The translations under genes and the position numbers were made by a program. Positions 6,606 through 22,265 of a DNA stretch of 34,622 bases are shown piece after piece (the first letter of the stretch is position 1; each line of letters starts with the position of its first letter). This stretch comes from Opitutaceae bacterium (lineage in GTDB: Bacteria; Verrucomicrobiota; Verrucomicrobiia; Opitutales; Opitutaceae): positions 1 through 34,622 of the forward strand of contig JACSRI010000116.1 of NCBI GenBank assembly GCA_014879845.1, read 5' to 3'. The notes under the pieces are model-generated. The model made no database searches, was not told the origin of the DNA, and saw only the letters and a program-made list of their open reading frames with translations.

Positions 6606-8678
6606 ATGGGGACTGCCATCCTCTTGCATCATGCGTGTGCCCGAAGCGAACTTCCGCTCGCCGCAGGTCTGCTGAGCGACGAGTTGTTGGACTCGGGGAA
6701 GGCCGTGCTTTGTGCACCCTCTGGCAACCGGGAACCATGCGACCTCGCTGTCTGGTTGGGAAAAACTGCGCCGTCAGGGTCGTTGGCTGAGATCGCCACG
6801 GCTCATCGGTGGTTGGTCTACCCTGGGGATCCAGCCACCTGGAGGCCAGGTCTGAAGACGGCATTGCAGCAGGCGGGCGCTCACTATGTAGTCGCCGAAC
6901 GGTTCCCCGACGAATGGCCCGACAGTATCATCGAAGGGGAGCATGCATGGCTCGTCGAGAACTGGCTTCCACTCGGGTTTGTTGTCCCCGAGCCGACCTA
7001 CCTTCCGATGTGTGCGGACGAGGCCTTGAAGTGGGTCGTCATCACCCGACAGGGCGACAAGGAGGCAGCGGATTGTTTGAAGCCTTCGCCAGCTCTTGCG
7101 CTCGTGGAAACAGGGAGCGCGACGTTTGTGCGACTGGACGGTCCGGCCTGTACCTGGCCAGGCAAGATGCGAAGTATTCTTGAGGAGCACGATGTCGGGA
7201 TTGTTGCCGCGTGTGCTGATCCCGTTGTTGATACGTGGCTCGCTTCGTTGTGCAGCCAGACTGGTCATCGGTGTCTCGTGGCGGAGCAGACGGGCTCGCC
7301 CTTGCGGTGGGCAGACAGCGCGATCGGAACGCGAGCGCCGGGGTCTCGGCATGGCGGGCTACGTCAGTTCATGTCTGCTTGGATCCAGGGGGTCCGGGAC
7401 CGTGGACCTCGGCCCATCTCCCTTGTCGCGATGAAAGACATGGTCACCGGGCTTGCCGAGCAGTCGAATCTGCTGAAGGGCGACGCGTACGGAGCGATCT
7501 CGACGGTGCGACGCGCGTTTGGCGCTGGTGCGGAGCGAGACCATCCGGCAGGTGCGTTCTTGCGTAGTGATCGACGGCTTTGGTTTTGGACCGCGTTGGC
7601 GAGCGGGCAGCCGGAAGCGATTGAGGCGGCGCTGAAGCTGCCGACAAGGGCTGTTGCGGACGCTGCCGCAGTTCTGGCCGAGCGTGTGGGCCAGCCGGGT
7701 TTTGACTCCGTCTTCCGGAGAATCGAAACGGTGGCACCGCAGGCGTGGAGAGTCGTCGATGCTGCGCTGGCCAAGCACGAAGGCGGGCGTGATCGTCAGT
7801 TCATTCGCAAGGTTTTGGCTTCGGGTCTGTTCATGGGGGCGGCGGATGCGCTGGTTGGTGTCGGAAACGACCGCGTGCTGACGGAGGCGGCCGGGTGGTT
7901 TTCCGGCGCGCTCGAGATCGAGTGCGAGGATGCCTCTCCGGATCCCCGTTGCATCGCGATCCCGAGTCTCCTTGTGGCCGGTCGGGTTGAAGAGGCCGGT
8001 CGATTGTGGGAGCGTGCATCAGGGCGGGTGGCAAAGCCGGTTCTGGCTGGCGCACTCTGGCGGGTGTTCGGAGCCTGGTTGCCCGTCATCGAATCAGGAG
8101 GTGTCGTTCCGGAAAGTGTGGTGCTGTGGCTGGTGAACCGAGTCCGCGAGTTGCAGGGCGACGAAAAGTGGACGGCGCTTCTCGCGCTGCTGGCGTCGTG
8201 CCTTGGCCTCTACGGCTGGGATAAGCAGCATGAGCGTCGATCTTGGGCCGGTCTCCATCTGGATAAGGGAGTCGCTCCCGCCACTTCCGGGGCTTTCGCG
8301 TTGTTCTGTTGGCTGCGACAGGATCTTGAATGTGGTCGTCGCGTGCTCGATGCGATCGGAGAGGCGTGGCCGACCACGCCGGACGAACAGTTTCCCATTT
8401 TCTGCGCAATGGCTTTGTTCGCTCCGGAAAGGGCCCGGGTCTGGCGAGCGCACTTCACGGAACCCGACGCCAGTTTCCTGGCTCGCGGGACTCCGGCCCA
8501 CACCCGCTGTTTCTTCTGGTCGCTTGCGTTGGCCGCGATGGGTGACGGGCAGCGTGCCGACGCGCTCTGGCAACAGGCGCTGCAGGACGATCCGCTCTCG
8601 AGGGTTCGGGCGCACCATCGAATGCGCCTGATCTCCGAAGGCCGCCCTGGTGTTCTGCGTTCGACGCTTGAGTCATGA
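6606..8678 (+). CDS. Unrecognised 690-residue protein opening the glycan locus; helical C-terminal half
   Basis: I do not recognise a family. There is no signal peptide or membrane segment, so it should be cytoplasmic. Residues 1-275 alternate short hydrophobic strands and helices (AILLHH, YVVAERFPDEW, IVAACADPVVDTWLASLC, HRCLVAEQTGS), an arrangement that could be a degenerate GT-B glycosyltransferase fold, though no E-x7-E motif is present. Residues 300-690 are almost wholly helical, with alanine-rich pairs ending in LALAAMGDGQRADALWQQALQDDP, which resembles a TPR unit. ATG at 6606 is the only in-frame start after a stop at 6558; no Shine-Dalgarno is seen. It lies 19 bases before the phosphodiesterase fusion, so it is probably the first gene of the operon. 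Codon use is less G/C-biased than in the flanks. Confidence 0.75.
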   Translation: MGTAILLHHACARSELPLAAGLLSDELLDSGKAVLCAPSGNREPCDLAVWLGKTAPSGSLAEIATAHRWLVYPGDPATWRPGLKTALQQAGAHYVVAERFPDEWPDSIIEGEHAWLVENWLPLGFVVPEPTYLPMCADEALKWVVITRQGDKEAADCLKPSPALALVETGSATFVRLDGPACTWPGKMRSILEEHDVGIVAACADPVVDTWLASLCSQTGHRCLVAEQTGSPLRWADSAIGTRAPGSRHGGLRQFMSAWIQGVRDRGPRPISLVAMKDMVTGLAEQSNLLKGDAYGAISTVRRAFGAGAERDHPAGAFLRSDRRLWFWTALASGQPEAIEAALKLPTRAVADAAAVLAERVGQPGFDSVFRRIETVAPQAWRVVDAALAKHEGGRDRQFIRKVLASGLFMGAADALVGVGNDRVLTEAAGWFSGALEIECEDASPDPRCIAIPSLLVAGRVEEAGRLWERASGRVAKPVLAGALWRVFGAWLPVIESGGVVPESVVLWLVNRVRELQGDEKWTALLALLASCLGLYGWDKQHERRSWAGLHLDKGVAPATSGAFALFCWLRQDLECGRRVLDAIGEAWPTTPDEQFPIFCAMALFAPERARVWRAHFTEPDASFLARGTPAHTRCFFWSLALAAMGDGQRADALWQQALQDDPLSRVRAHHRMRLISEGRPGVLRSTLES

Positions 8679-8697
8679 AAAAGGCTGTCACCAGATC

Positions 8698-11046
8698 ATG
8701 ATCGTGAGCGGCTCGCATGACGCGGTGGTGTTCGTGCTGGTTGATGCGTTGCGGCACGACTACGTGGGGCGCACGCGATTCCTGGCCGACCTGGCACGGC
8801 GGAGCCTTACGGGGCGGCTCGAGGAGCCGTTCGGATTTTGTCCGCGAGGCGCCTACTTTGGCGGGCTGGATGTCGAGGAACAGGGATTCAGCAATCTCTT
8901 TCATTTCGATCCGGAAAACAGTGTGTTTCGTTGGACCCGACAGATTGCTGGGACCGGAAACGATGCGTGGGTCCGGCGAACCTTGCATGATGAGATCGTC
9001 CGGCGCGCTCGGCGGCAACTACCGGAGTTTTCGGCGGCCTATGTCGACCCGGTCCGGATTCCTTTGGAATGGCTCAACTTCTTCGATGTCAGTGAGCGTG
9101 AGGCGCCGTGGAGCCCACGTGTCGGGTATCGTTCGCTCTTCCACATTCTCGATCAGACGAAGCGGCCTTGGATGGAGGTATCTTGGCCCTTCGGCGGCCT
9201 GGACGGAGTCGTCAATGATCACTCGGTGACGAAGGCGGCTCTCGACCGGATGAACGGGGAACACGCCTTCGTGTTCTTGCACCTGCCCGACCTCGATGCA
9301 GCCGGACACTATCACGGTCCCGGTGGAGTCGGACTTCAACGCGCGCTTGAGGAGACGGATGCGCTTTGTGCGAGGATAGCGGAGCGCGCGATGGAGGTGT
9401 ATCGCAATCCGGTCGTTGTATTCTCGGGAGACCACGGCATGCTGCCAGTCATTCGGGCTGTAGACGCCGGGCGGGCGCTTCGTGATGCCGGTCTCGAGAT
9501 GGGGCTGGACTGCGCCTACTTCATCGATTCGACCATGGTTCGGTTCTGGTTCTTCCACGAACAGGCGCGAGCGCGGGCTTGGTCCGCGATGGAGAATGCT
9601 GGTGGAGGCCATTGGTTGAGCCTGCCAGAGAAGCAGCGCTGGAAGATTTCCGGACTGGCGCAGCGGAACGGTGAAGAACTCTTTCTAGCCGATCCAGGGG
9701 TCGTGTTCTCACCGAGCTTCTTCGACGATTCGGGTGCCGGGGTTCCCCGAGGGATGCATGGCTACGCACCGGACGTCATGGACAATCGCGCGGCATTCTT
9801 GGCCCACAGTCCGCGCTTTCATTGGTCCGGGGACGTTGGCGAGATTGAAGCCCGCCGCCTGTTTCCGTCGTTCCTGCGTTGGCTTGGTCTGCCTGGGCCG
9901 GAGCCGATGCGGGTGCCCCCCATCGTGGAGACGGAGGCGCATGTTGCATCCAGACGGTGGACGAAATCGGTGGCTCCCGGAGCCGATGAGGTCGTGAGCC
10001 TCCAGTTGGGTCGGGCGGTCGAGGCTATTCGAGGGCGCGCTCCGGAAACCAGGGCCGTCCTTGTCTACGGTTCGTTTGGCCGCGGCGAGGGAACGGTGGT
10101 CTCAGACGAGCAAGGAGTCCGCGCGGTGAACGACTACGACCTGCTTGCGATTGGCGCGCCCAGTGGGTCACTCGATGGTCTCGGGCCTGAGCTCGCCCGG
10201 GAATTTCGGATCGATTTCGTCGATGCAGGAGCATGTCGCGAACTCGCGAGCGCCACAAATCCCACCCAGCTTGAGTTCGATATCCGATATGGTTCGACGT
10301 TAGCTTGGGGCGACCTGTCCGTGCTGAACGATCTGCGGCACTATGCGCCGGCTGAGGTCGAGCGATCGGAAGGGACTTTTCTCTTCTGCAACCGGCTGGG
10401 TGGGTTGCTTCTCGGCCTGGCCGACGTGGCGGAGCGGCGGCATGATGCCACACGATTCCTCACCCATCAGGTGGCGAAGATCTACATCGCCGCGGCCGAC
10501 GCCTGGTTGCTCTCTATTGGCGACTATCACGCGTCGTACGAGGTCCGCCGGCGGCGGTTTGCGTCCTTGGCGCCAGCGGCCTCCTTCTCTCCCCAGGTGG
10601 TTGGCCGCATCGATGGGGCGTTTAATTTCAAACTCCGCTCGCAGGCGTTTGACCTAGGCGATGTCAACCAGGCCGTCATGGAGGTCAGGCAACTCATGAC
10701 GGAACTCGTGCGCGCGATGGCGTGGGGCGCCGATCTCAGCGCGCTTTGGCGCGAGTTGGCAGTGGCGGCGCGAATACACGTGCTGCCCTCGGAGCGCTGG
10801 TTGGCCGAGTCGCGCAGATTTGGCCTGGCCGCGAAGCTCCCTGCGGGCTCCGAAGGCCTGCCGCTGGTGGTCGCGCTATACCGGTCGATCGTGGCATTGC
10901 TTTTCTCGTGGACCGACGAAGCCTGCGTGCGGCGCGACGCTGTTGCGGCCTCGCTGTCGCCAGCTTGGGACCTAAGCGACGAGTGCAAGACTACCGAACT
11001 TCCTCGGGCGATCGGCACCGTCTGGTACTCCGTGTTCTTCGGCTGA
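8698..11046 (+). CDS. Fusion of a type I phosphodiesterase (alkaline phosphatase superfamily) with a nucleotidyltransferase
   Basis: A 782-residue cytoplasmic protein. Residues 8-400 are an alkaline-phosphatase-superfamily domain of the nucleotide pyrophosphatase/phosphodiesterase type, with all metal ligands in order: Asp16 (FVLVDALRHDY), Asp200 and His204 (DLDAAGHYHGPG), Asp245-His246 (FSGDHGM) and His354 (GMHGYAPD). The usual nucleophile segment (PTxTxPN) reads PFGFCPRG (44-51), without the Thr; Cys48 lies next to that position. Residues 450-510 are a polymerase-beta-type nucleotidyltransferase: GSFGRGEG (458-465), NDYDLL with Asp479/Asp481, and a third acid in RIDFVD. Residues 560-782 are helical. 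The start at 8698 is preferred to one at 8650, which would overlap the previous gene. Substrates are unknown; it may transfer or remove a phospho-nucleotidyl group on a glycan intermediate. Confidence 0.8.
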   Translation: MIVSGSHDAVVFVLVDALRHDYVGRTRFLADLARRSLTGRLEEPFGFCPRGAYFGGLDVEEQGFSNLFHFDPENSVFRWTRQIAGTGNDAWVRRTLHDEIVRRARRQLPEFSAAYVDPVRIPLEWLNFFDVSEREAPWSPRVGYRSLFHILDQTKRPWMEVSWPFGGLDGVVNDHSVTKAALDRMNGEHAFVFLHLPDLDAAGHYHGPGGVGLQRALEETDALCARIAERAMEVYRNPVVVFSGDHGMLPVIRAVDAGRALRDAGLEMGLDCAYFIDSTMVRFWFFHEQARARAWSAMENAGGGHWLSLPEKQRWKISGLAQRNGEELFLADPGVVFSPSFFDDSGAGVPRGMHGYAPDVMDNRAAFLAHSPRFHWSGDVGEIEARRLFPSFLRWLGLPGPEPMRVPPIVETEAHVASRRWTKSVAPGADEVVSLQLGRAVEAIRGRAPETRAVLVYGSFGRGEGTVVSDEQGVRAVNDYDLLAIGAPSGSLDGLGPELAREFRIDFVDAGACRELASATNPTQLEFDIRYGSTLAWGDLSVLNDLRHYAPAEVERSEGTFLFCNRLGGLLLGLADVAERRHDATRFLTHQVAKIYIAAADAWLLSIGDYHASYEVRRRRFASLAPAASFSPQVVGRIDGAFNFKLRSQAFDLGDVNQAVMEVRQLMTELVRAMAWGADLSALWRELAVAARIHVLPSERWLAESRRFGLAAKLPAGSEGLPLVVALYRSIVALLFSWTDEACVRRDAVAASLSPAWDLSDECKTTELPRAIGTVWYSVFFG

Positions 11047-11054
11047 CTCACTCC

Positions 11055-12305
11055 ATGGCTCGATTCTCTATCATCATTCCGTGCTTCAACGCGGCCCGGT
11101 GGATTGAGGCGACGATCGGGTCGTGCCTTGGTCAGACCTGCCGAGATCTTGAGGTGATCGTCGTAGACGATGGCTCGACCGACGGATCCGGTCAGGTGGC
11201 GGAGGCGATGGCAGCGCGCGACGGCCGGGTGCGGGTCCTCCGGCAGGGGAACCGTGGTCTGGGTGCCGCCCGCAATTCGGGTATCAAGGCCGCTTCAGGC
11301 GAGTATTTGAATTTCCTCGACGCTGACGATCTGCTGGAGCCGGAGAAGCTCGAGAGACAGGGCACCGTGCTCGATCGCAATCCCGATTTGGAGATGGTCC
11401 TTTGCGATGGGTGGCGGATCGATGCTGATGGCAGCGTTGTCGAAAACGGGCTTCTGGAGCGGCGGCGTTTCGGCGGCTTGCCTTCGCTTTTCGAGCTGCT
11501 CTTTTCGGGCGGCCAGTTTCCGCCCCTTGTTCCGCTCATCCGCCGCCGACTCGTTGATGCCGTGGGCGGTTTTGAGGTGGATCGTCGCGCGGCCGGGTGG
11601 GCCGATACCGGGTTCTGGTTGCGGGCAGCATTGTCGGGTGCGCGCTATGCGATTGTCTGTGAGCGCCTGTGCAGGTACCGCGTGCATCAATCCGCGATGA
11701 GTGCCGATCTCGGAGCGATGGAGGAGGCCGCTCAGCTGATCTACGCCCGGCTCATGGCGGAACATCCCACGGAATGCGCGCGTAGCTTGCGTGCGACACA
11801 GCGTCGGCTGGCCGAATGCGAAGCCGCAGCCGCGGCCTTGCGCATGGCCGTGGGCGCATCCGAGGCGAGCCGCTCAGCGCTCGCCGATGAATTGGCGGCC
11901 TTGCGCGCTTTGCGAGATGCAGATGCAGAGCGGCGCGAGGCGGAGGTCTTGAAGCGAATGCTTGCCTTCCTTGGCGCCCAAAGTGGGGCACAGGCGAGGC
12001 GAAAGGTATATATCTGGGGGGCGGGTTCAGGCGGACGCAGAGTCTTGGACCTGCTTCGCCGAAGCGGGGCTGAAGCAGACGGATTCATCGACAGCGATCC
12101 GCGAAAAACCGGACTGATCGTGGATGGCGTTGTCGTACTGGGCTCCGACGTGTTTTGTGGGGAGTCCGCGGTTCGACCGTTCGTGCTCGTAGCCTCCCAA
12201 TACTGCGATGAGATTGTCATTCGGATCAAGCGGCTTGGCATGATCGACGGCCGAGATTTCCTAGCGGTGGATTTTCGTGTCGTGGCCGCGCTCGAAGCCG
12301 GATGA
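11055..12305 (+). CDS. GT2 glycosyltransferase with coiled coil and C-terminal Rossmann-like accessory domain
   Basis: A 416-residue protein. Residues 1-235 are a GT-A family 2 glycosyltransferase: IIIPCFN (6-12), VDDGSTDGS (37-45), LGAARNSGIKAASGEYLNFL (69-88) and the metal-binding DADD (89-92), with GWADTGFWLR probably holding the catalytic base region. Residues 240-303 are an alanine/glutamate/arginine-rich coiled coil. Residues 317-407 form the locus-specific accessory domain: VYIWGAGSGGRRVLDLL, GFIDSDPRKTG, VLVASQYCDEI. It transfers a sugar from a nucleotide donor; the donor is not readable. It begins 8 bases after the previous stop and overlaps the next start by ATGA, so translation is probably coupled. 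ATG at 11055 is directly followed by the first GT2 strand. Confidence 0.88.
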   Translation: MARFSIIIPCFNAARWIEATIGSCLGQTCRDLEVIVVDDGSTDGSGQVAEAMAARDGRVRVLRQGNRGLGAARNSGIKAASGEYLNFLDADDLLEPEKLERQGTVLDRNPDLEMVLCDGWRIDADGSVVENGLLERRRFGGLPSLFELLFSGGQFPPLVPLIRRRLVDAVGGFEVDRRAAGWADTGFWLRAALSGARYAIVCERLCRYRVHQSAMSADLGAMEEAAQLIYARLMAEHPTECARSLRATQRRLAECEAAAAALRMAVGASEASRSALADELAALRALRDADAERREAEVLKRMLAFLGAQSGAQARRKVYIWGAGSGGRRVLDLLRRSGAEADGFIDSDPRKTGLIVDGVVVLGSDVFCGESAVRPFVLVASQYCDEIVIRIKRLGMIDGRDFLAVDFRVVAALEAG

Positions 12306-13489
12306 GCAGGGCAATCATCAATCTTCACTCCATGGAATGCACCCGCTCCATCCGCAGATTTTACAGGGATGCGCCTGAGATCATTTTCGTTTCGCACGAT
12401 GCGTCTGTCACGGGTGCTCCGATCCTGATGTTATCCCTTCTGGCGTGGTGGCGGAGCTCAGGCGGTGGTCCATTTCGAGTGATCCTTCGTCATGGAGGGA
12501 CACTCGAACCCCGGTTTCGGGAGTTCGGACGCGTTTGGAACCTCAACTGGCCGGGCAAACGGGTGTATCCGGATCCGACCTCGCAGCAGGACCTGCTGAG
12601 CTTCTGTGGCCCGGGTGTGCGGCTCATCTACGCCAACACTGGTGCGGTGGGCGATGTGCTCGAAGCGCTCGAGCCGCTCGGTGTGCCGGTGCTTGCGCAC
12701 ATCCATGAGCTCGAGACCATGCTGTCGCGCGGGATCGGGCGCGAGCGGTTCGATCTCGTCAAGCAGCGGGCGACGAGATTCGTCGTGCCGTCCCGGGCGG
12801 TCGCGGCCAACCTGATCGAGAACCATGGTATTTCCGCCGACATGATGGATCTCGTGCCGGAATATCTGCCTGACGACTACGCGAATGACTGGAGCGCAGC
12901 ACCACGCGGGACGGAGGCACCGAGGATGATCTTCGGTGCAGGGACGCTGGACTGGCGCAAAGGCCCCGATCTCTTTGTCCAAGTGGCGGCACAGGTGCGA
13001 AAATCGTGTAGCCATGATGTGCGTTTTGTCTGGGCCGGCGCCCCGACCGAAGTCGGCCAAAAGGAGGCGCTCCATGAACTCGCGGTGACGCACGGCGTGG
13101 GCGATGTGCTCACCTTTGTCGGCGAAAAGTCCGATTTGCGGCCCTACTTCCGCGAGGCCGATGTCATGGTCTCGAGTTCGCGTGAAGACCCTTATCCCGT
13201 CGTGTGCCTCGAGGCTGCGGCGCATGGTGTGCCGGTGGTCTGTTTCGATGGGGCGGGCGGCATGCCGGAGTTTGTGCAGGGCGACGCCGGACGGGTCGTG
13301 CCTCATCTCGATGTCGCGGCCATGGCTGCGGCGATCCTGAGCTTGCTCGTTGATCCGGCAGCCCGCCAGTCCGCGGGGCGATGCGCACGGGCTCGGATCG
13401 AGTCGGGTCACCGCATTTCGATCTGCGGCTCCCGACTGCGGGATATCGCCACGAGGCTCATGGGCATGGCGCAAGGAGTGGACACATGA
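12302..13489 (+). CDS. GT4 family glycosyltransferase
   Basis: A 395-residue, single GT-B fold retaining glycosyltransferase. The N-terminal domain has FVSHDASVTGAPILMLSLL, the glycine/alanine loop typical of this GT4 subgroup, and HIHELE. The C-terminal domain has FGAGTLDWRKGPDLFVQVA and VSSSREDPYPVVCLEAAAHG, in which an acidic residue and Glu spaced by seven contact the nucleotide sugar, then GGMPEFV. The length is normal and no accessory domain is present, unlike its neighbours. The start overlaps the upstream stop as ATGA, and its own stop overlaps the next start the same way. It probably adds one residue of the locus glycan; donor and acceptor cannot be told. Confidence 0.88.
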   Translation: MSRAIINLHSMECTRSIRRFYRDAPEIIFVSHDASVTGAPILMLSLLAWWRSSGGGPFRVILRHGGTLEPRFREFGRVWNLNWPGKRVYPDPTSQQDLLSFCGPGVRLIYANTGAVGDVLEALEPLGVPVLAHIHELETMLSRGIGRERFDLVKQRATRFVVPSRAVAANLIENHGISADMMDLVPEYLPDDYANDWSAAPRGTEAPRMIFGAGTLDWRKGPDLFVQVAAQVRKSCSHDVRFVWAGAPTEVGQKEALHELAVTHGVGDVLTFVGEKSDLRPYFREADVMVSSSREDPYPVVCLEAAAHGVPVVCFDGAGGMPEFVQGDAGRVVPHLDVAAMAAAILSLLVDPAARQSAGRCARARIESGHRISICGSRLRDIATRLMGMAQGVDT

Positions 13490-14370
13490 GCGCTGCACGC
13501 CCCTTCGTGTCCATCGTCATCCCTTCCTTTAACCACGCCCGGTATGTGGGAGAGGCGGTCGAGTCCGCGCTCGCGCAGGTGGGGGTGACCGTCGAACTCA
13601 TCGTCGTCGACGATGGTTCGCATGACGGGAGCCCGCGAATCGTGACCCAGGTGTTCGACCGGCGGGGATGTTCGGGGTGCGAACTGATCGTGCAGGACAA
13701 CCAAGGAGCGCACGCGGCGATCAACCGCGGCCTTGAGCGTGCCCGGGGAGAGTTTCTCCACATCCTCAACTCCGATGACCGGCTCCATCCTGGACGGTGC
13801 TCTCGGTTGATTGCGGCCCTCGGGCAACACGGCCAGCTGGCAATCAGCGATGTGCGTGTGATCGATGCGGAGGGCCGGGTCGCACCCACCGGGCATCCCA
13901 TGAGCGCCTGGTACCAGGCGGCCATGCGCGTGTTTCTTGCCCAGCCGTCGATCGGCTTCGGATTGCTAGCCATCAATTCCGCGGTGACCACGAGCAACTT
14001 CCTGTTTCGTCGCGACCTGCTCGACAAGACCGGCGGTTTCACTCCGGAAAAACTCTGCCACGACTGGCGCTTTCTCCTGCGCGCCCTGCGCTTCACCGAG
14101 CCCGTGCGCGTTCCCGAACCTCTGCTCGACTACCGGTTCCACGGCGGCAATACCGCGCCGCGAGTGATGACGCTGAGGCGCAGCGAAGGTGAGACCGCCT
14201 TGCGCGAATACCTATCCGCCGTTTGCAGCGATGCCCCCGTCAACCGTCTGGCGCCATCGCCCTTCTGGTGGCCGGGGTATTTTGATGTATTTGTCCGCTC
14301 GAGACGCAGCTGGTTTGCCAACCAGTTCATTTCCGAGTTTCTGCCGCCGCTCCCGAATGCAGCCCTCTGA
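13486..14370 (+). CDS. GT2 family glycosyltransferase
   Basis: A 294-residue GT-A family 2 enzyme. Motifs are VSIVIPSFNHARYVGEAV near the N terminus, LIVVDDGSHDGS, AAINRGLERARGEFLHIL, and NSDDRL where the divalent-metal DxD usually sits. CHDWRFLLRAL contains the likely catalytic acidic segment. There is no membrane helix or accessory domain. ATG at 13486 overlaps the upstream stop (ATGA) and has GGAG eight bases before it, the clearest Shine-Dalgarno in this part of the locus. Its stop TGA shares a base with the next ATG. The C-terminal half uses more G/C-rich codons than its upstream neighbours. Confidence 0.88.
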   Translation: MSAARPFVSIVIPSFNHARYVGEAVESALAQVGVTVELIVVDDGSHDGSPRIVTQVFDRRGCSGCELIVQDNQGAHAAINRGLERARGEFLHILNSDDRLHPGRCSRLIAALGQHGQLAISDVRVIDAEGRVAPTGHPMSAWYQAAMRVFLAQPSIGFGLLAINSAVTTSNFLFRRDLLDKTGGFTPEKLCHDWRFLLRALRFTEPVRVPEPLLDYRFHGGNTAPRVMTLRRSEGETALREYLSAVCSDAPVNRLAPSPFWWPGYFDVFVRSRRSWFANQFISEFLPPLPNAAL

Positions 14371-17300
14371 TGCCCATGAATGATCCGACCGACCCCAGGC
14401 TGATCGCTTTCTATCTCCCGCAGTTTCACCCGATCCCCGAGAACGACCTTTGGTGGGGCCGCGGATTCACGGAATGGAGCAACCTCACGCGCTCGCGGCC
14501 TCTCTTCCCCGGCCATGTGCAGCCGCGATTGCCGGCCGATCTTGGGTTCTACGACTTGCGACTGTCGGAGGTGCGCGAGGCACAGGCCGAGCTGGCGCGC
14601 CGCGCCGGGATTTCGGCCTTCTGTTATTATCACTACTGGTTCGGGGGGCGCCGGCTTCTCGAACGGCCGTTGGACGAGGTGGTGGCGTCAGGCTGTCCGG
14701 ATTTTCCCTTCTGTGTCTGCTGGGCGAATGAGAGCTGGACGCGCCGCTGGGATGGTCTGGAGCGCGAGGTCCTCATGGCACAGGAATACGCAGGTGTGGA
14801 GCCCGAGAGCTTCATCCGCGATCTCCTGCCGGCGCTTCGGGACCCGCGTTACGTCCGTGTGAACGGCAAGGCGTTGCTTCTCGTCTATCGGCCGGAGAGC
14901 ATTCCGGAAGCGCGGCGGTGGACCGATGCCTGGCGAGAATTCGCGCGCGCAAATGGTGTGGGTGAACTCCTGCTTTGCCGTGTGCACTCTTTCTCGCAGG
15001 AGGCTCCCGAGGTCTTGGGATTCGACGCGGCGGTGGAGTTTCCGCCGCTGGGCGGGCTGCTCGAACGCTCGCTGCTCGCGCCGACCGAGGTGACTGCACT
15101 CGTCGGAAGCGGCGCCAACTTCCAGGGCATGCTTGCGGATTACCCGCGTTTTGCGCGGATGGCAGCTGAGGCGCCGCCGCCTCCGTTTCGCCGTTTCCGC
15201 GGTGTCGCGCCGTCGTGGGACAATACACCACGTCGCCGGAACCGTGCGCTCGTGTTCACCGGGGCCAACCCGGACGACTATGAACGATGGCTTTCGGCGG
15301 CACTCCAGCATACCGTGAGAGAGCAACCCGCCGGCGAACGACTCGTCTTCGTGAATGCTTGGAACGAGTGGGCCGAGGGATGCCACCTCGAGCCGGATGT
15401 CGTGTGGGGCGACCGATATCTGCGGGCAACGCGCGCGGCGATCGCCTCGGCACGGCATCTTGGGGAGCACTTGGCGGGGGACGGGTCGGTGGGAGAACTG
15501 GTCGAACTGCTGGCGACGCGCGAGCGATCGATTCGCGCGCTCTCAGCCGAAGTGCAGGCCCGCGAAGACACCGTCCGGGACCTCAGGCGGCAGCTGGCCG
15601 CGGCCGATCTCGCCGCTCGCTCGGCATCGACTGCGTCCGCAGCCGATGCGGCCCATCCCGAGGCGGGCAGACTTCGTGTCTCCACGAGTGCGCTGGTCGG
15701 CGGCCGGCGGCCGACGGCGGTCATCTTCGGTGCGGGCAAGGGAGGCGAGCGGGTGTTTCGCATGCTGCGCGACTCGTGGGAGGTGGTTGCCTTCATCGAC
15801 AACGACACCGGGAAACACGGTTCCCTGATCGAGGGTGTGCGCGTGGTCTCTCCGGCGCTCGTCCAGGAGAACAAGGACGCTGTCGTCTTCCTGGCCAGCA
15901 TGTACGCTGACGAGCTGCAGGCGCAGCTTCTCGCCATGGGTGTGGCACGTTCGCGTATTCGACACGTCGACACCCAGATCCTGATTGGCGCTGCGGTGAC
16001 CGCGCCCGATTCGAACCGGAAACTGGACGTGATTCTCTTCGGTACGGGCAATGGAGGCCGTCGTGCTTTCGATAATCTGCCATCCGAATGTCGGGTGGTC
16101 GCGTTCGCCGACAACGATCCGGCAAAGATCGGGCAGTCGTTCTGCGGATATCCGGTCATCAATCCAGCGGAGCTTCTGGAGCGCGCCTACGACCACGTAA
16201 TCATCGCGAGCATGTATGCGGACGAGATCATCGCACAGCTCGAGGAACTGGGGGTGGCGCGACACAAGATCGAGGTCGCGCATCCATCGGTGTTGACCGC
16301 CGAAAGTGGGCCGGGCGCGACGACTGCAGCCGCACCCGTGAAGACTCCGGTTGTGGTGTTCGGCGCCAGCATGGGCGGGCGACGAGCCATGGGGGTCCTT
16401 CCCGAAGACTGGACGGTTGTCGCCTTTGCCGACAACGATCCAGCCAAGATAGGCGGAAGCCTCTGTGGCGTGCCCGTCATAGCTCCCGATGCGATCCGAA
16501 AATGGGCTGCTGCGGAGATCGTCGTGGCGACGATGCACGTGGAGCAGGTCCTGGCACAGTTAAAAGGTCTCGGCCTGCCCGAGGAGCGGATCTGGTTGGT
16601 GCATGCCGACGCCCTCGCCGGGAGGCTGCTGCTTGCCTCCGGCGCACGCGGGAGTGCATCTGTGCAGCCTCCAGCAGAGTGTGGCGAGTATCCACGATCT
16701 TGGCCTGCGCTTCAGCCATACATCCTCCAGTATGCCTCGGAGTTGCGTGTCTCGGGTGAAGTCCATCATGCCGACCACATATTCAGGTTCATCGTAGATC
16801 ATCCCGACCACGCAAACAAACCCCGGGATGCCGTCCGCTACTACTTCCACGACGGGGCGGGATCGGCGGACAAGCTGGCGGGCCTGCTCTTCGACGACCT
16901 GAAGCTTCCGCGGGCGCGGGGCACGAGCTTGCTTGAGTTCGCTTCCGGTTACGGGTGCTTGACGCGACACCTAGTGAACCGCCTGGCTCCGGTCCGGGTG
17001 GTCTCATGCGATATTCACAATGAGGCGGTGGCTTTCCTGCGCGATGTGCTTGGAGTCGAGGTCCAGCAGTCAGCCAGCCTGCCGGAGGAGTTGCAGCTTC
17101 CGTGCGCTTTTGACGCGGTCTTTGCGCTCAGCTTCTTCTCGCACATGCCCGAGCGCACGTGGGCCCGATGGCTTGGGCGACTGTATGCTGCGCTCAAGCC
17201 CGGCGGCTACCTTCTATTCACCACCATGGGGACGAGCAGTCGTAAGTTCGTCGGTGATCCTCAGATTCCTCCGTCGGGTATCTGGTTTCATCCGGCTAGC

Positions 17301-17465
17301 GAGCAAAAGGACCTCGATACTGCGGAGTACGGCACGACGCTCGTGACTGCCGAGTTCGTGCGCAAGCAGGTCTCCCGGCTGAACGAGGCGACATTGATCG
17401 ACGAGCGCATGGCCTACTGGTGGGGTCACCAGGATCTCTATGTCGTTCGGCGGACGCAGGCCTGA
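14370..17465 (+). CDS. WbsX-like glycan enzyme fused to three Rossmann-like domains and a methyltransferase
   Basis: A 1031-residue multidomain protein. Residues 10-360 are a WbsX/GH99-like domain: AFYLPQFHPIPENDLWWGRG (13-32), EWSN, FCYYHYWFGG (84-93), WANESW (118-123) and NAWNEWAEG (329-337), the hallmarks of that family, which occurs in O-antigen and rhamnan loci. Residues 375-412 are a coiled coil. Three copies of the locus accessory domain follow at about 449-538, 553-640 and 660-747. Residues 850-955 are a class I SAM methyltransferase with motif I LLEFASGYG (854-862), VVSCDIHN (877-884) for the ribose-binding acid, and LKPGGYLLF (942-950). The chain is cytoplasmic. It starts on the upstream stop (TGATG); an ATG six bases later is an alternative. 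It may hydrolyse or transfer glycosyl units and methylate the chain; the order of action is unknown. Confidence 0.87.
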   Translation: MPMNDPTDPRLIAFYLPQFHPIPENDLWWGRGFTEWSNLTRSRPLFPGHVQPRLPADLGFYDLRLSEVREAQAELARRAGISAFCYYHYWFGGRRLLERPLDEVVASGCPDFPFCVCWANESWTRRWDGLEREVLMAQEYAGVEPESFIRDLLPALRDPRYVRVNGKALLLVYRPESIPEARRWTDAWREFARANGVGELLLCRVHSFSQEAPEVLGFDAAVEFPPLGGLLERSLLAPTEVTALVGSGANFQGMLADYPRFARMAAEAPPPPFRRFRGVAPSWDNTPRRRNRALVFTGANPDDYERWLSAALQHTVREQPAGERLVFVNAWNEWAEGCHLEPDVVWGDRYLRATRAAIASARHLGEHLAGDGSVGELVELLATRERSIRALSAEVQAREDTVRDLRRQLAAADLAARSASTASAADAAHPEAGRLRVSTSALVGGRRPTAVIFGAGKGGERVFRMLRDSWEVVAFIDNDTGKHGSLIEGVRVVSPALVQENKDAVVFLASMYADELQAQLLAMGVARSRIRHVDTQILIGAAVTAPDSNRKLDVILFGTGNGGRRAFDNLPSECRVVAFADNDPAKIGQSFCGYPVINPAELLERAYDHVIIASMYADEIIAQLEELGVARHKIEVAHPSVLTAESGPGATTAAAPVKTPVVVFGASMGGRRAMGVLPEDWTVVAFADNDPAKIGGSLCGVPVIAPDAIRKWAAAEIVVATMHVEQVLAQLKGLGLPEERIWLVHADALAGRLLLASGARGSASVQPPAECGEYPRSWPALQPYILQYASELRVSGEVHHADHIFRFIVDHPDHANKPRDAVRYYFHDGAGSADKLAGLLFDDLKLPRARGTSLLEFASGYGCLTRHLVNRLAPVRVVSCDIHNEAVAFLRDVLGVEVQQSASLPEELQLPCAFDAVFALSFFSHMPERTWARWLGRLYAALKPGGYLLFTTMGTSSRKFVGDPQIPPSGIWFHPASEQKDLDTAEYGTTLVTAEFVRKQVSRLNEATLIDERMAYWWGHQDLYVVRRTQA
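15714..16611 (+). repeat. Three tandem copies of a Rossmann-like domain inside the WbsX fusion gene
   Basis: The copies are at about 15714-15984, 16026-16290 and 16347-16611. Each shows a hydrophobic strand plus GxGxGG or a variant (FGAGKGG, FGTGNGG, FGASMGG), then FIDND or FADND followed by a Lys-x-Gly, then a G-V-x-V strand, and a small-residue strand (LASMYADE, IASMYADE, VATMHVEQ) with an amphipathic helix ending in LGV or LGL. Copies 2 and 3 share FADNDPAKIG exactly, although their codons differ, so the duplication is old. Confidence 0.85.
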
Positions 17466-17578
17466 CATGGGCTGGCAACTGCGCTCAATCTAGCGAATCG
17501 AGATGCGGTCTGTCAGATGCCATGTCGTCCATGACATCCGGCGATTGTGGATGCTGAATACCCCAGGGGCCCAGACAC

Positions 17579-18613
17579 ATGTATAGACATCACGGGTACT
17601 GTCCGGCTTGCGATCACGACACGGTGTTCGAAATACGCGGCCCATGGCTGCGGGACCAGTATGTGTGTACCCGCTGTGGGTCCATCCCCCGCGAGAGGGC
17701 ACTCATGCATGTGCTCGGGACCGTTTGCCCGCACTGGCGTCGGCTGCGACTGCATGAGTCGTCGCCGGTCATGCGCGGCGCGAGTGTCCGTCTCTCGCGT
17801 GAGTGCCCAGGCTACGTGGGGACCCAGTTCTTTCCTGATGTGGCGCGCGGCGCGACGCGTGATGGCTGGCGTTGCGAGGATCTCGAGGCCATGACCTTCG
17901 CCGACGAGTCGGTCGACCTTCACGTCACCCAGGATGTGTTTGAACACATATTCCATCCGGACCGTGCGTTCCGGGAAATCGCGCGGACGCTCACCCCGGG
18001 AGGTCTGCATGTCTTCACGACGCCACTCGTCAACAAGTGCGCTCCCACCGAACGGTGTGCCGTCCTGCGTCCCGACGGCAGTATCGAGCATCTGAGGGTA
18101 CCGGAGTATCATGGAAACCCGGTGTCGTCCGGGGGAGCCCTGGTGACCATGCGCTGGGGGTACGACATCTGCGAGCAGATCCATCGCGAAAGTGGACTGT
18201 TCACCACCATGCATCATCTCGACCTGCATGAGATGGGGATCCATGCTGAGTACATCGAGGTCCTCGTCACTCGAAAGCCCGGTGTCGGACTGCCGGTGGA
18301 CCCCGGCGCGCATGCGGCGGCAGCCTCGAAGCGGGCGGTGATCTTCGGCGCCGGCCGGGGCGGGGAAAATGCACGACGGTTTCTGGCCGATGCATGGGAG
18401 ATCGTGGCATACGCGGACAACGACATAAGCAAACACGGTTCGTTTGTGGCCGGTATTCCTGTCGTGCCCGCTTCTCGGGTACTCACTTGGCCCGATGCGA
18501 CCGTATTCGTCGCGAGCGTCCATGCCTCTGAGATGGTGGCGCAGTTGCGAAACCTTGGCATTGTGAGCGAACGGATCAAAGTGCTCGGACACGAGATCAT
18601 AGCCGGCCGGTAG
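17579..18613 (+). CDS. Zinc-ribbon SAM methyltransferase with C-terminal Rossmann-like accessory domain
   Basis: A 344-residue cytoplasmic protein. Residues 8-33 have Cys8, Cys11, Cys30 and Cys33, a C-x2-C-x18-C-x2-C zinc ribbon. Residues 55-230 are a class I methyltransferase: LHESSP and FFPD before the core, WRCEDLEAMTFADESVDLHVTQDVFEHIFHP in two parts for motifs II and III, and REIARTLTPGGLHVFTTP for the post-core strand. Motif I is weak. Residues 252-337 are the accessory domain (VIFGAGRGGENARRF, YADNDISKHG, FVASVHASEM), closest by eye to copy 1 in the WbsX fusion, with which it shares the KHGS step. The gene starts 113 bases after the WbsX stop, one of the longest gaps in the locus, and ends 18 bases before the next gene. 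A sugar O- or C-methyltransferase is likely. Confidence 0.85.
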   Translation: MYRHHGYCPACDHDTVFEIRGPWLRDQYVCTRCGSIPRERALMHVLGTVCPHWRRLRLHESSPVMRGASVRLSRECPGYVGTQFFPDVARGATRDGWRCEDLEAMTFADESVDLHVTQDVFEHIFHPDRAFREIARTLTPGGLHVFTTPLVNKCAPTERCAVLRPDGSIEHLRVPEYHGNPVSSGGALVTMRWGYDICEQIHRESGLFTTMHHLDLHEMGIHAEYIEVLVTRKPGVGLPVDPGAHAAAASKRAVIFGAGRGGENARRFLADAWEIVAYADNDISKHGSFVAGIPVVPASRVLTWPDATVFVASVHASEMVAQLRNLGIVSERIKVLGHEIIAGR

Positions 18614-18631
18614 ACGGCGGAGAATCTGCAC

Positions 18632-20092
18632 GTGCTTCTCTACGTAGGACAGGATGGCGAGGCGCCGAGCGGCGTGACCACCTACGGCGGTACGATTCTG
18701 CGCCGTGTCAGGGGCAGCCGAATGATGCTCCTCAATGCCGAACGGCCGTCATCGATCGTGGTCCCGGACACCATGAAGGCGCTCCATTGCGTTCGGGCAT
18801 CGGAGAGTCACGACCCAATCAGGGTTTCCCGACATCTTGCGGCGATCGTCGGTCAGCATCAGGGTCCAGTTGTAGTCGCACCGAATACGGGAGACACACC
18901 TTGGGAGGCGACGCGGATGGTACTAGCGGGCATGTCAGCCTCCGAGCGCAGCCTGATCCGTGTCCTCGGCATCGTTCACAGTGACATGGAGACGCAGTAC
19001 GCGCTGGCCGAGCGCTACCTTGCGGTCGCGCCCATTTGGATCGGAGTCAGTCGGCGGTGTGCCGAGGGGCTGCGAAGGCGGATCGGCAGCAGGGACGGGA
19101 GCGTTTACGAACTGCCGTACCCGATCGAGTTGGCTGAAGTTCTCGCCCGCAAGCCGACACGGGCCAGGCCGTTGCGTCTGGCCTACGTTGGCCGGCTTGA
19201 GGAGCCGCAGAAACGCGTATCGCGCCTCGCCACCGTGCTGGAGCGCCTGACAGCTGCGGGTATCGAGTTCTCGGCGACCGTGGCCGGCGACGGGCCGGCG
19301 CGTGCCGACTTTGAGGAGCGGCTGCAGCGGGCGGGCGAGATCGTCCAGCAACGCGTCACCCTGGCCGGCGTGCTCGATGGCGCTGGTGTGGCCGACATCT
19401 GGCGCATGCACGATGTGTGCGTGCTCACCTCTGCCTATGAAGGCATGCCCCTGGCCCTGCTCGAAGCCATGGCGGCTGGCGTCTGCCCCGTCGTGATGGC
19501 TGTCGAGTCGGGGTTGCCTGAGTTGCTCGAGGATCGGGTCAATGCGCGTGTCGTGCCGCAGGGCGACATCGATGCGATGACCGCGGTCCTTCGCGAACTC
19601 GCCGCCGACCGCGAACAGACCGTGCGTCTCGGCGCGGCGGCGCGTGAGACTGTGCGGACGCGTTTTTCGCCTGAAGCGCACTTCGCCCGACTGGAGGCGA
19701 TCATTGGTGAATTGTGGGCGCTTCCTCCGCCCGACCCGACGGCGATCGCTCCGGATATCACGGGTGTCGCGGTGACGGCGATCGTCGCGCGACTTGAGGA
19801 GTCGGGCCGGCCGGTGGCCGTGTTCGGCGCCGGCATGTTCGGGAGGAAGGTGGTCGATGCGTGTCTCAACGCGGGACTCGCGGTGGTCGCGCTGGCCGAT
19901 TCCGATCCCGCCCGATCGGGGTGGATCTATCGTGGGCTCGTTTGTTCGGCACCGGAGAGCCTGCTTGCGCACGGTGAGTGCGCGATCGCCCTCGGCTCGA
20001 TGCAGTTCTCGGGCGAGATGGCCCGGAAAATCGCCGACCTCGCAGTGCAGCGCGGTGTGCCCATCCCGCCGCTGATTTCCTGCAGTCCATGA
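18632..20092 (+). CDS. GT4 glycosyltransferase with C-terminal Rossmann-like accessory domain
   Basis: A 486-residue protein. Residues 1-365 are a GT-B family 4 glycosyltransferase: an N-terminal domain with SGVTTYGGT; LRLAYVGRLEEPQKRV (181-196) at the start of the donor domain; AGDGPARADFEERL; and SAYEGMPLALLEAMAAG, holding Glu270 and Glu278 of the E-x7-E motif. Residues 394-475 are the accessory domain: VAVFGAGMFGRKVVDACLN, ALADSDPARSG and IALGSMQFSGEM; its glycine motif is GAGMFG rather than GAGxGG, the most diverged copy. The start is GTG at 18632 with GGAG eight bases before; no nearby in-frame ATG is better. The stop overlaps the next start as ATGA. Confidence 0.87.
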   Translation: MLLYVGQDGEAPSGVTTYGGTILRRVRGSRMMLLNAERPSSIVVPDTMKALHCVRASESHDPIRVSRHLAAIVGQHQGPVVVAPNTGDTPWEATRMVLAGMSASERSLIRVLGIVHSDMETQYALAERYLAVAPIWIGVSRRCAEGLRRRIGSRDGSVYELPYPIELAEVLARKPTRARPLRLAYVGRLEEPQKRVSRLATVLERLTAAGIEFSATVAGDGPARADFEERLQRAGEIVQQRVTLAGVLDGAGVADIWRMHDVCVLTSAYEGMPLALLEAMAAGVCPVVMAVESGLPELLEDRVNARVVPQGDIDAMTAVLRELAADREQTVRLGAAARETVRTRFSPEAHFARLEAIIGELWALPPPDPTAIAPDITGVAVTAIVARLEESGRPVAVFGAGMFGRKVVDACLNAGLAVVALADSDPARSGWIYRGLVCSAPESLLAHGECAIALGSMQFSGEMARKIADLAVQRGVPIPPLISCSP

Positions 20093-21252
20093 ACCTCACC
20101 ATCATCCTTTGTGCGCGGGACGCCGCGTCGACGATAGAACGTGCGATCGTCTCGGTGTTGCCAGAGGTGGATTGTCGGCTGCTGCTGGTGGATGATGGCT
20201 GTCGCGATGCGACTGTCGCGATCGCTCGACAGGCGGCAGGGGACAGACTGCGCGTGGTCGCCGTGCCTGCGCCCGGCGGTATTCCCCGCGCGCGGCAGAT
20301 GGGTCTGGAGGTATGTGAAACTGAATACGCGGCCTGGCTCGATGCCGACGACGCGTGGGTCCCGGGCCGTGCCGCGCGCATCCTCGCGGCGCTCGGGGGC
20401 GGTGCCGATGTGTTTTGTGAGTCGATAGATCTTGTCGACGGCGCGAGTGGGCGCAGCTTGCGGCGGCTCGATGTGCCGTCGTTTGTCCGGCGGGAGCGGA
20501 ATCCGGCGCGACTCTTTGAGCGGAATCATCTCCCCGGTGACACGCAGGTGGGGTTTCGTGTCGCTACATTGCGTGCGGCCGGCGGCTACGATCCGGAGGT
20601 CTACGGCGTGGAGAGCTTTGATTTGTTGCTGCGTGTGATCGCACGGGGAGCGGTCTTTGCTTACGGCGACGACGTGGGCTACCGGATGTACGCGTACTCC
20701 GGAAGCGTTTCGCGCCATCTCGCCCGGCAGCGTGCGTCGCTGGCCGCGGCTCTCAAGAAGCACGAGTATGCGCGTGTTCGCGCCTGGTGCCGCGCGGCGG
20801 GCGAGGCGGACCGGGTGGCAGCGTGGGTGCTTGTATCCATGGCGTTATTCCGTGAGGAGCCCGGTGCAGCGCTTCGATTCCTCGAGGAGGCGTCTCCCGC
20901 CGCGGCTGATCCGCGCGAGATCCTCGAGCCGGATGGCCCGTGGCCTTTTCGCGAGGGATGGCGCCGTGCCTTTCAGCGAGGGACTTGTCTGGCGCTCCTT
21001 GGTGGCCGCGACGAAGAAGCGATCGTCGAACTGCGGGCGGCGCGCTCGCTCGAGGTGACGGCCGAGGGAGACAATAATCTCGGCGTCGTCTTCGCACGCG
21101 CCGGCCGGGCGGAGGAGGCGCGCGGATGCTGGGAGCAGGCGCTGCAACGCTTCCCGGGTTACCTGGATGCGCGGATGAATCTCGAGGATCCGGGCGCCGG
21201 TCGGATCACCACGCATCCCCTCCGGCGTCAGGCGAGCCGGTCAGAGTATTGA
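20089..21252 (+). CDS. GT2 glycosyltransferase with C-terminal TPR-like helices
   Basis: A 387-residue protein. Residues 1-215 are a GT-A family 2 domain: LTIILCARDAASTIERAI, LLVDDGCRDAT, GGIPRARQMGLEV and the metal site DADDAW. The segment SFDLLLRVIARG takes the place of the acidic catalytic helix. Residues 215-387 are helical, with ALFREEPGAALRFLEEA and NNLGVVFARAGRAEEARGCWEQALQRFPGYLDAR, which reads as a TPR. Compared with the other GT2 proteins it carries TPR helices in place of the Rossmann-like domain. ATG at 20089 overlaps the upstream stop (ATGA). A 53-base gap separates it from the epimerase, where codon use returns to the G/C-rich style of the flanks. Confidence 0.87.
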   Translation: MNLTIILCARDAASTIERAIVSVLPEVDCRLLLVDDGCRDATVAIARQAAGDRLRVVAVPAPGGIPRARQMGLEVCETEYAAWLDADDAWVPGRAARILAALGGGADVFCESIDLVDGASGRSLRRLDVPSFVRRERNPARLFERNHLPGDTQVGFRVATLRAAGGYDPEVYGVESFDLLLRVIARGAVFAYGDDVGYRMYAYSGSVSRHLARQRASLAAALKKHEYARVRAWCRAAGEADRVAAWVLVSMALFREEPGAALRFLEEASPAAADPREILEPDGPWPFREGWRRAFQRGTCLALLGGRDEEAIVELRAARSLEVTAEGDNNLGVVFARAGRAEEARGCWEQALQRFPGYLDARMNLEDPGAGRITTHPLRRQASRSEY

Positions 21253-21305
21253 TTTGGGTCGCACGGCGGTTTCGTTCGGCGCAGACCTCTCGGACATCCT
21301 GTCCC

Positions 21306-22265
21306 ATGGCCCTATTCCTCCTCACCGGCGCCGCCGGCTTCATCGGTTCCCATCTCGTCGAGCGACTGCTGGCCGGCGGACATCGCGTGATCGGTATCGA
21401 TTGTTTTGATTCGTTCTACCCGCGCGCGGTCAAGGAGCGGAATATCGCCGGGCCGCGGGCGCATCCGCATTTCGAGCTGTGGGAGATCGACTTGCGGGAC
21501 AACGGTGCCCTGTCCGCGGCGATCGATCGCGCGGGCGTGCGCCTCGACGCCATCGTCCACCTCGCCGCCAAGGCCGGGGTGCGGCCCTCGATGGCGGATC
21601 CGGTCGGGTATCAGGAGGTCAATGTCGCGGGCACGCAGAATCTCCTCGAGCTCGCGCGCCGCCTGCGCGTGCCGCAGTTTGTCTTCGGCAGCTCGTCGAG
21701 CGTCTACGGGATCAGCCCGAACGTGCCTTGGCGTGAGGACGACACCGTGCTGCGCCCGATCAGCCCGTATGCGAGCAACAAGGTCAGCGCTGAGCTTATG
21801 GGGCACGTCTACTCGCACCTGCACGGTATCCGGTTTGTCGCCTTACGCTTCTTCACCGTCTATGGGCCGAGGCAACGGCCGGATCTCGCGATCCACAAGT
21901 TCGCGCGGTTGATTCGCGCCGGTCAGCCGGTGCCGTTCTTCGGCGACGGTTCGACGCGCCGCGACTACACATTCGTCAGCGACATCGTCGACGGCATCGT
22001 GGCGGCGCTCGGCTACACGCGCTCCGCCTACGAGGTGATCAACCTCGGCCACAACGAGCCGGTCTCGCTGGCCGAACTGGTGCGCGAACTCGAGTCGGCG
22101 CTCGGGCGTCGGGCGATCCTCGACCGCCAGCCCGAGCAGCCGGGCGACGTGCCGCAGACCTGGGCCGACCTGACGAAGGCGCGCGAGCTGCTCGGCTATC
22201 AGCCGCGGGTTCCGCTGCGCGATGGTCTCCGGGCATTTGTCGATTGGCTGGACCGCGAGGGTTGA
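21306..22265 (+). CDS. NAD-dependent nucleotide-sugar epimerase, UDP-glucuronate 4-epimerase type
   Basis: A 319-residue extended short-chain dehydrogenase. The NAD loop is TGAAGFIGSH; IDCFDSFYPRAVKERN and HLAAKAGVRPSM follow; the catalytic triad is visible as SSSSVYG and SPYASNK (Tyr-x3-Lys); LRFFTVYGPRQRPDLAIHKFARLI is the diagnostic stretch of the UDP-glucuronate 4-epimerase (CapI/LspL-like) group; DYTFVSDIVDGI is the C-terminal family motif. All catalytic residues are present, unlike the HldD-like protein at 5301. It probably interconverts UDP-glucuronate and UDP-galacturonate, supplying a uronic acid to the locus glycosyltransferases; a UDP-glucose 4-epimerase role is less likely. ATG at 21306 is set by the NAD-binding strand that follows at once. 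Confidence 0.88.
   Translation: MALFLLTGAAGFIGSHLVERLLAGGHRVIGIDCFDSFYPRAVKERNIAGPRAHPHFELWEIDLRDNGALSAAIDRAGVRLDAIVHLAAKAGVRPSMADPVGYQEVNVAGTQNLLELARRLRVPQFVFGSSSSVYGISPNVPWREDDTVLRPISPYASNKVSAELMGHVYSHLHGIRFVALRFFTVYGPRQRPDLAIHKFARLIRAGQPVPFFGDGSTRRDYTFVSDIVDGIVAALGYTRSAYEVINLGHNEPVSLAELVRELESALGRRAILDRQPEQPGDVPQTWADLTKARELLGYQPRVPLRDGLRAFVDWLDREG

Follow-up and report, generated by a model that had tools for sequence, protein, structure and literature searches.

The N-terminal domain of PglD and the C-terminal domain of TcaB9-type C-methyltransferases hold the nucleotide part of their NDP-sugars. A report on WbaP describes a DUF that is stabilised by uridine nucleotides and sits at the dimer interface, with the dimer contact made almost entirely by a beta-hairpin at about residues 251–268 (PMC10942596). 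A "one-size-fits-all" nucleotide response was proposed there as its mode of regulation (PMC10942596). The fold superfamily and single members of it are already known. In the literature searched, which left many subscription journals outside, no description was found of a module common to the enzymes encoded in one glycan locus, and none of anchored forms that stand alone. In this study, a module of about 85 residues was investigated in a window (the whole stretch of DNA analysed) of 34,622 nucleotides from an Opitutaceae bacterium (Verrucomicrobiota, Opitutia) with a genome of 5.4 Mb. The module occurs six times, on four proteins. All six represent a single module, non-catalytic and Rossmann-like, from the WbaP-DUF/CapD-N/PglD-N/CAC2185 superfamily. 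We tentatively propose, at somewhat less than an even chance, that this module binds a nucleotide and brings the glycan enzymes of a locus into association, perhaps gating them as well.

The six copies and their fold

Module boundaries were set by profile. For each copy, a profile from the other five was searched against the 190 open reading frames (ORFs) of the window (leave-one-out). All copies lie on the + strand. Copy 1 is C-terminal in a GT2-family glycosyltransferase (11055..12305, +; PF00535, 8.3e-35), whose ORF and residue numbers start from ATG 11055. It follows a weak coiled-coil-like linker (heptad count) and covers residues 317–400 (12003..12254; leave-one-out i-E 1.1e-15). Copies 2, 3, and 4 stand in tandem in a WbsX fusion (14370..17465, +), at residues 449–529 (15714..15956; i-E 5.7e-29), 553–633 (16026..16268; 1.3e-28), and 660–740 (16347..16589; i-E 2.6e-27). 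In this fusion, the modules are preceded by the WbsX domain (PF14307, 3e-133, residues 11–353) and a coiled-coil-like stretch (heptad count). Copy 5 is C-terminal in a methyltransferase (MT; 17579..18613, +; Methyltransf_11, 2.1e-11), at residues 252–332 (18332..18574; 5.8e-27). The N-terminus of this protein is a CxxC zinc-ribbon-like segment, with its cysteine pairs read from the sequence. Copy 6 is C-terminal in a GT4-family glycosyltransferase (18632..20092, +; PF13692, 3.1e-25), at residues 394–475 (19811..20056; i-E 4.3e-11).

A sequence-only reading of the window had noted six copies at these positions, and the profile confirmed all of them. It had also assigned them to four unrelated glycan enzymes. 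The four proteins stood, but the number of catalytic domains is five, because the WbsX protein also contains a C-terminal methyltransferase domain at about residues 848–957 (16911..17240, +; PF13489, 3e-8; Methyltransf_12, 4.9e-12, at residues 855–948). Each copy was found by the other five at 4.3e-11 or better, and the earlier reading of all six as one domain type is supported. Elsewhere in the 190 ORFs, the best match to the five-copy profiles had E above 2. In a control with 2000 shuffled copies, the top score was 9.7 bits. Pairwise identity among the six copies was 20–44% for protein and 37–52% for nucleotides, and G9, G14, D33, D35, G40, and G45 were invariant. A six-row profile searched against the genome returned the six copies from which it was built at 2.2e-31 or better; the next matches were at 2.1e-9 and 7.1e-4, the latter a PF13727 (CoA_binding_3) protein.

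Conservation was investigated in an alignment of 104 copies (104 of 105 rows; one short row, L096, was dropped). The best-kept residues were G9 (99%), D32 (92%), G11 (81%), G39 (78%), N33 and K37 (both 72%), D34 (67%), and G14 (62%). Other well-kept positions were mainly hydrophobic, and one helix carried L75 (79%), I71 (67%), Q74 (63%), and E70 (54%). Judged by sequence, these residues form the signature of a nucleotide site of the Rossmann type, in which strand 2 ends in an acid. In the Rossmann fold, such an acid usually binds ribose. The nucleotide-type glycine loop is retained, which supports the sequence-only reading, and the loop and the Asp ending strand 2 are the most conserved parts.

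The structure of copy 3 (WbsX residues 550–647) was predicted by AlphaFold2 from the 104-copy alignment with a pLDDT of 95.4 and a pTM of 0.87. The predicted order was E3–8, H12–19, and E25–31, with the glycines G9, G11, and G14, and D32 just after strand 2. A beta-alpha-beta start with a glycine loop and an acidic residue ending strand 2 was thus found, as expected of the Rossmann-like nucleotide-binding superfamily. In copy 5, the same order of strands and helices was predicted, with pLDDT 97–98 over the module. The structure prediction that the sequence-only reading had suggested as a check therefore came out as Rossmann-like for copy 3 and with the same element order for copy 5, and covers these two copies only; copy 3 was compared with solved structures and copy 5 by secondary structure only.

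The closest solved structure to the copy 3 model was 2g6t from Clostridium acetobutylicum (Z 13.6, rmsd 2.9 over 92 residues), which we take to be CAC2185 and the source of the Pfam name C2185-like_N (PF22674). The CapD-like domain 3nkl came next, with a Z of 12.2, and Rex repressors reached up to 11.0. The WbaP DUF 8t53 has the same fold (Z 10.8, rmsd 2.5 over 86). Z values of up to 10.3 were obtained for succinyl-CoA synthetase alpha, and of 9.6 and 9.3 for two sugar N-acetyltransferases, 4eaa and 4m9c. In a sequence search, the module profile reached E 3.5e-15 with 3nkl, 1.7e-9 with Rex, 1.9e-9 with 2g6t, 2.4e-5 with VioB, and 1e-4 with WbaP. Comparison by hhalign with small sets gave 98.7% for PF13727 (9 rows), 97.2% for PglD_N (8 rows), and 96.8% for PF08484 (7 rows, one of which, L111, was itself reached by the six-copy profile at 9.9e-4). 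A search of PglD_N, CapD, and CoA-binding families had been suggested beforehand, and the relation to the N termini of PglD and CapD was borne out by structure match, profile search, and hhalign alike.

The module was compared with five known families. C2185-like_N gave the top fold match and was also the Pfam family matched most often, by 26 of the 104 copies when E ≤ 0.01 was required. However, the WbsX fusion scored 16.1 bits and copy 3 18.8 bits against a curated cut-off of 27; the window GT2, MT, and GT4 had no PF22674 match at E ≤ 1, and the window's genome had none at 0.001. Some relatives passed the cut-off, at 3 places in 12 genomes against 109 matches of the 104-copy profile, which can include a few Rex or CapD relatives. 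No function for CAC2185 or PF22674 was found in the literature searched. The WbaP DUF and the PglF/CapD N-terminal domain (PF13727) resemble the module in fold, in hhalign score, and in their glycan pathways. They differ in that a four-helix transmembrane bundle precedes the DUF and the dimer hairpin lies outside the shared fold. PF13727 was matched by one of the 104 copies at 0.01 (best E 0.0023) and was absent among the Pfam matches of the four window proteins at E ≤ 1.

The PglD/NeuD N-terminal domain (PF17836) shares the GAGxxG and (F)xDD motifs with the module, but the GT2 and GT4 copies scored 15.7 and 16.3 bits against a cut-off of 23.4, and MT and WbsX were unmatched at E ≤ 1. In PglD/NeuD, a hexapeptide acetyltransferase lies C-terminal to the domain; no such Pfam match was found in the four window proteins. 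The C-terminal domain of C-methyltransferases (PF08484, Methyltransf_14) was matched by 15 of the 104 copies at E ≤ 0.01, but not by the four window proteins at E ≤ 1, and the KGNTLLN and PG(T/S)xIPI stretches common in the A5 alignment were not seen by eye in the window copies. The C-terminal domain of Rex has the same fold and a GAGxxG...DxDPxKxG pattern. However, Rex has an N-terminal DNA-binding domain, whereas the window modules follow GT2, WbsX, MT, and GT4 domains, none of them DNA-binding by Pfam.

A PF08484 match (1.8e-15) at L111:1501-1788 also reads like the module (VDSDPEKAGTFVPG). On its residues, it is a possible intermediate between PF08484 and the module.

Distribution and lone forms of the module

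An iterated profile was run over 68 loci, namely the window, 20 loci from relatives, 5 viral, and 42 named. Four loci (L062, L063, L068, and L081) repeat others (L044, L052, L039, and L047) and were left out of the position counts and the tree. The 64 non-repeating loci contained 185 modules in 177 proteins. The module was N-terminal in 78 of these, C-terminal in 70, alone in 15, and internal in 14; starts were longest-ORF starts and the classes are approximate, the C-terminal class including L037_3663, a lone copy with an over-long ORF, and L082_14430 and L089_6758, in which only a hydrophobic segment and a short linker precede the module. At least two copies were found in 25 of the 42 named loci (match plus up to 9 kb either side), one of which, L096, may be two frames of one gene. 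This answers the earlier suggestion to count co-occurring copies in other genomes. The highest numbers per locus were nine (L086) and eight (L082, L089, and L090). L102, which was fetched by tblastn, had no module by profile.

At least 12 Pfam enzyme families carry the module: GT2, GT4, GT-D, TOD1_MUCI70, FkbM, TylF, Methyltransf_23, LicD, MptE-like, PS_pyruv_trans with Radical_SAM, Glyphos_transf, and Capsule_synth, with WbsX in the window. No enzyme family above the Pfam cut-off was found in 11 of the 40 module proteins scanned. The wide spread, the number of enzyme families, the lone and apparently membrane-anchored forms, and the tandem-only form described below had not been foreseen in the sequence-only reading. 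One protein, L089:12688-15066, fuses the module with Radical_SAM and polysaccharide pyruvyl transferase domains.

In Sporofaciens musculi (Lachnospiraceae; the 5.8-Mb genome of L090), 38 matches at 1e-8 and 48 at 1e-5 were found in several clusters, among the 84 of 99 candidates that were scored; these could include a few Rex proteins or further relatives. The module was sporadic in the window's family, with matches at E ≤ 1e-12 in at least 13 of 252 genomes (at most 19 candidates scored per genome). This limit was used because matches between 1e-8 and 1e-12 include frames of 210–230 aa (probably Rex) and 620–690 aa (probably CapD/PglF-like). Ten of the 13 genomes had two or more copies, and in all ten at least two lay on one contig within 35 kb. 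No module was found in the DNA examined of five IMG/VR contigs with WbsX-type proteins (L057–L061). Scans of viral contigs with the MT and with A3 found nothing, and plasmids gave no tblastn match to one lone copy.

Lone module proteins of about 125–145 aa were also found. Nine aligned over their full length; Nitrincola (Gammaproteobacteria) supplied one of these and the window's family the other eight. Four related lone proteins belong to loci with 7–8 further modules each, three in Lachnospiraceae (L082, L089, and L090) and one in an unclassified bacterium (L086); an N-terminal hydrophobic segment was present in L082 and L089 and absent from L086 and L090. L038_6538 consists of three modules and nothing else, and L070_10693 is a GT2 with a module followed by a hydrophobic tail. 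In all seven family genomes with a lone copy (G012, G013, G211, G212, G214, G216, and G223), another module was present on a larger protein of the same contig. These larger proteins were Pfam enzymes in G013 and G223, and the rest were unscanned or had no enzyme family.

In three loci (L045:2141-3652, L049:7011-8531, and L068:7451-8974), the gene immediately upstream of the lone module encodes a protein of about 505 aa that could be placed in no clear Pfam family. This L068_7451-type neighbour was compared with L046_9100 and proved to be no relative of it.

Possible association, sensing, and other roles

We infer nucleotide binding, association, membrane anchoring, a hub role, and gating for the module. 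In the proposed mechanism, the module would keep its nucleotide pocket. Copies on different enzymes of a glycan locus would associate, directly or via a hub copy, so that the enzymes could work as one assembly, and nucleotide binding would probably stabilise or gate the association. In relatives, the role of hub may fall to a lone copy that a terminal helix anchors in the membrane, or to a protein made up of nothing but tandem copies. In the window, the hub may be the three tandem WbsX copies, serving the single copies on GT2, MT, and GT4. The match in number between three WbsX copies and three single-copy enzymes suggests a test and proves nothing. Docking and the sensing of one nucleotide, both named in the sequence-only reading, are the two leading explanations. 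The association module was ranked first, a nucleotide sensor acting in cis second, and a handle for the acceptor third.

The association reading is favoured by the fold matches, by the conserved loop, by the clustering of copies in loci, and by the lone and tandem-only forms. These forms would suit a binding partner of other copies, situated at the membrane in some loci, and are hard to explain for a module whose only task is to tune the enzyme fused to it. Eight of the nine aligned lone copies end in a hydrophobic stretch (maxKD17 1.69–2.99), and 7 of the 15 "standalone" proteins passed the hydrophobic-tail test. Among 182 other long ORFs of the relatives' loci, the fraction with a tail of maxKD17 > 1.6 was 0.016.

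Observations on the lone copies, on WbaP, and on descent weigh against the association module. The share of eight in nine is not a rate for all lone copies, the nine having been chosen as lone copies with a tail. The ninth tail was not hydrophobic (maxKD17 1.05). Of 1000 shuffled tails, the observed value was reached by 125 for L039, 148 for L049, 303 for L052, and 520 for L045. Four lone copies (L042_3473, L086_8586, L090_5554, and L090_15163) had neither a hydrophobic tail nor an N-terminal segment. By profile search, the window's genome contains no lone copy. Lone copies are rare in general: 5 of 384 genomes of the class matched at 1e-12, one of them (G012) with a complete lone form, and 2 of 244 genomes of Nitrincola's order matched, one with the lone form. 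The stretch of WbaP that matches the module is 144–243. The WbaP dimer interface does not transfer to the module, because the hairpin lies outside this shared stretch.

Descent was investigated with a tree of 159 copies over 92 columns, in which 11 of 156 inner branches were starred. Copies with E above 1e-6 were left out, and L037_8679, a lone copy, was wrongly left out as a spurious frame. Catalytic type required 43 changes on the tree against 61.3 ± 1.9 when shuffled, with the largest catalytic cluster lumping GT2 and GT4, and position required 34 against 52.4 ± 2.9. Locus required 107 against 114.0 ± 2.3, only a slight locus signal. In each case, none of 200 shuffles reached the observed value. 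The best relative was on the same catalytic type for 50 of 103 copies (15.9 expected) and in the same locus for 19 of 138 (19.9 expected). Because the tree and these counts favour catalytic type over locus, the module mostly travels with its enzyme. A locus-specific docking code, which was considered, has little support from the tree and the same-locus count. The tendency to follow the enzyme speaks against private docking codes only; a promiscuous interaction or a ligand shared by all copies would agree with it.

Within the window, three of the six copies had their best relative in the window itself. WbsX copy 1 and the MT copy were reciprocal best relatives (48% over the local match) and the only starred pair, and WbsX copy 3 was nearest WbsX copy 2. 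For the GT2 copy, the best relative lay on a GT4 from a different genome (L037_12036); for the GT4 copy, it lay on L055_9733, of the same catalytic cluster as the glycosyltransferases; and for WbsX copy 2, it was a lone copy (L044). Recent duplication of all six copies was rejected on these relatives in other loci and on the nucleotide identity.

The same tendency to follow the enzyme, not the locus, suits a nucleotide sensor without assembly. Here, one nucleotide, a by-product or part of the pool (e.g., UMP or UDP), would bind to every module, each module would tune the enzyme that carries it, and all enzymes of the locus would thereby answer to a single signal. Conservation is highest in the loop residues, and the closest tested relative, the WbaP DUF, is reported to act in this way (PMC10942596). 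However, a regulator acting in cis would have no enzyme to act on in the lone and tandem-only copies. From knowledge of the families, LicD, FkbM, TylF, WbsX, and PS_pyruv_trans are not expected to release a uridine nucleotide. The sensor was judged possible but unlikely. Slightly more doubtful is a homotypic "docking Rossmann" system, in which unrelated enzymes share the module, anchored lone or tandem copies act as scaffold, nucleotide occupancy is the switch, and the WbsX triple holds three enzymes.

The module might also serve as a handle for the acceptor, a sugar or glycan linked to a nucleotide, gripping it by its nucleotide part for modification by the attached enzyme. The homology to PglD_N and PF08484 points this way, as does the order of Zn-binding segment, MT, and module in the window MT, L088, L097, and L103, which resembles TcaB9-type C-methyltransferases. 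In the prediction of the full MT protein (pLDDT 65.6, pTM 0.43), only the module was confident, and the arrangement of MT and module was of low confidence. This handle is improbable, as the module is also on GT2, GT4, and GT-D, enzymes expected to bind their own NDP-sugar donors, can be N- or C-terminal, and exists in lone forms. A structural or vestigial add-on with neither ligand nor partner, spread by domain shuffling, would suit the low identity and the use of both protein ends, but is very improbable in view of the near-invariant G9 and D32 in the 104 copies and the tight clustering in loci. Redox or NAD(H) sensing as in Rex is the least probable: Rex is among the closest folds and sequences, but no DNA-binding domain was found in the four proteins by Pfam, there is no evident redox link, and PglD_N, PF13727, and PF08484, which are glycan-pathway relatives, are as close or closer.

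The broader question is how the many soluble enzymes of a surface-glycan locus work in sequence on an acceptor that is linked to the membrane. If the association module is the true reading and one module joins enzymes, its presence would predict which enzymes work together, and lone copies would be small hubs. Even if it only senses nucleotides, the kind of regulation proposed for WbaP would no longer concern the initiating step alone but would reach at least 12 further enzyme families.

Neighbouring genes in the window

Four further glycan genes of the window lack the module. A GT4 (12302-13489) and a GT2 (13381-14370) lie between the module-bearing GT2 and the WbsX fusion. The module-bearing GT4 is followed by a GT2 (20092-21252), which has a weak TPR match, and by an NDP-sugar epimerase/dehydratase (21126-22265). 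Upstream of the glycan enzymes, the ORFs 5439-6320 (293 aa) and 6606-8678 (690 aa) had no Pfam match at 1e-4. One protein at 8650-11046 contains a type I phosphodiesterase domain (PF01663) and a separate C-terminal part. The GSFGRGEG...DYDLL of this part is presumably a nucleotidyltransferase-like motif.

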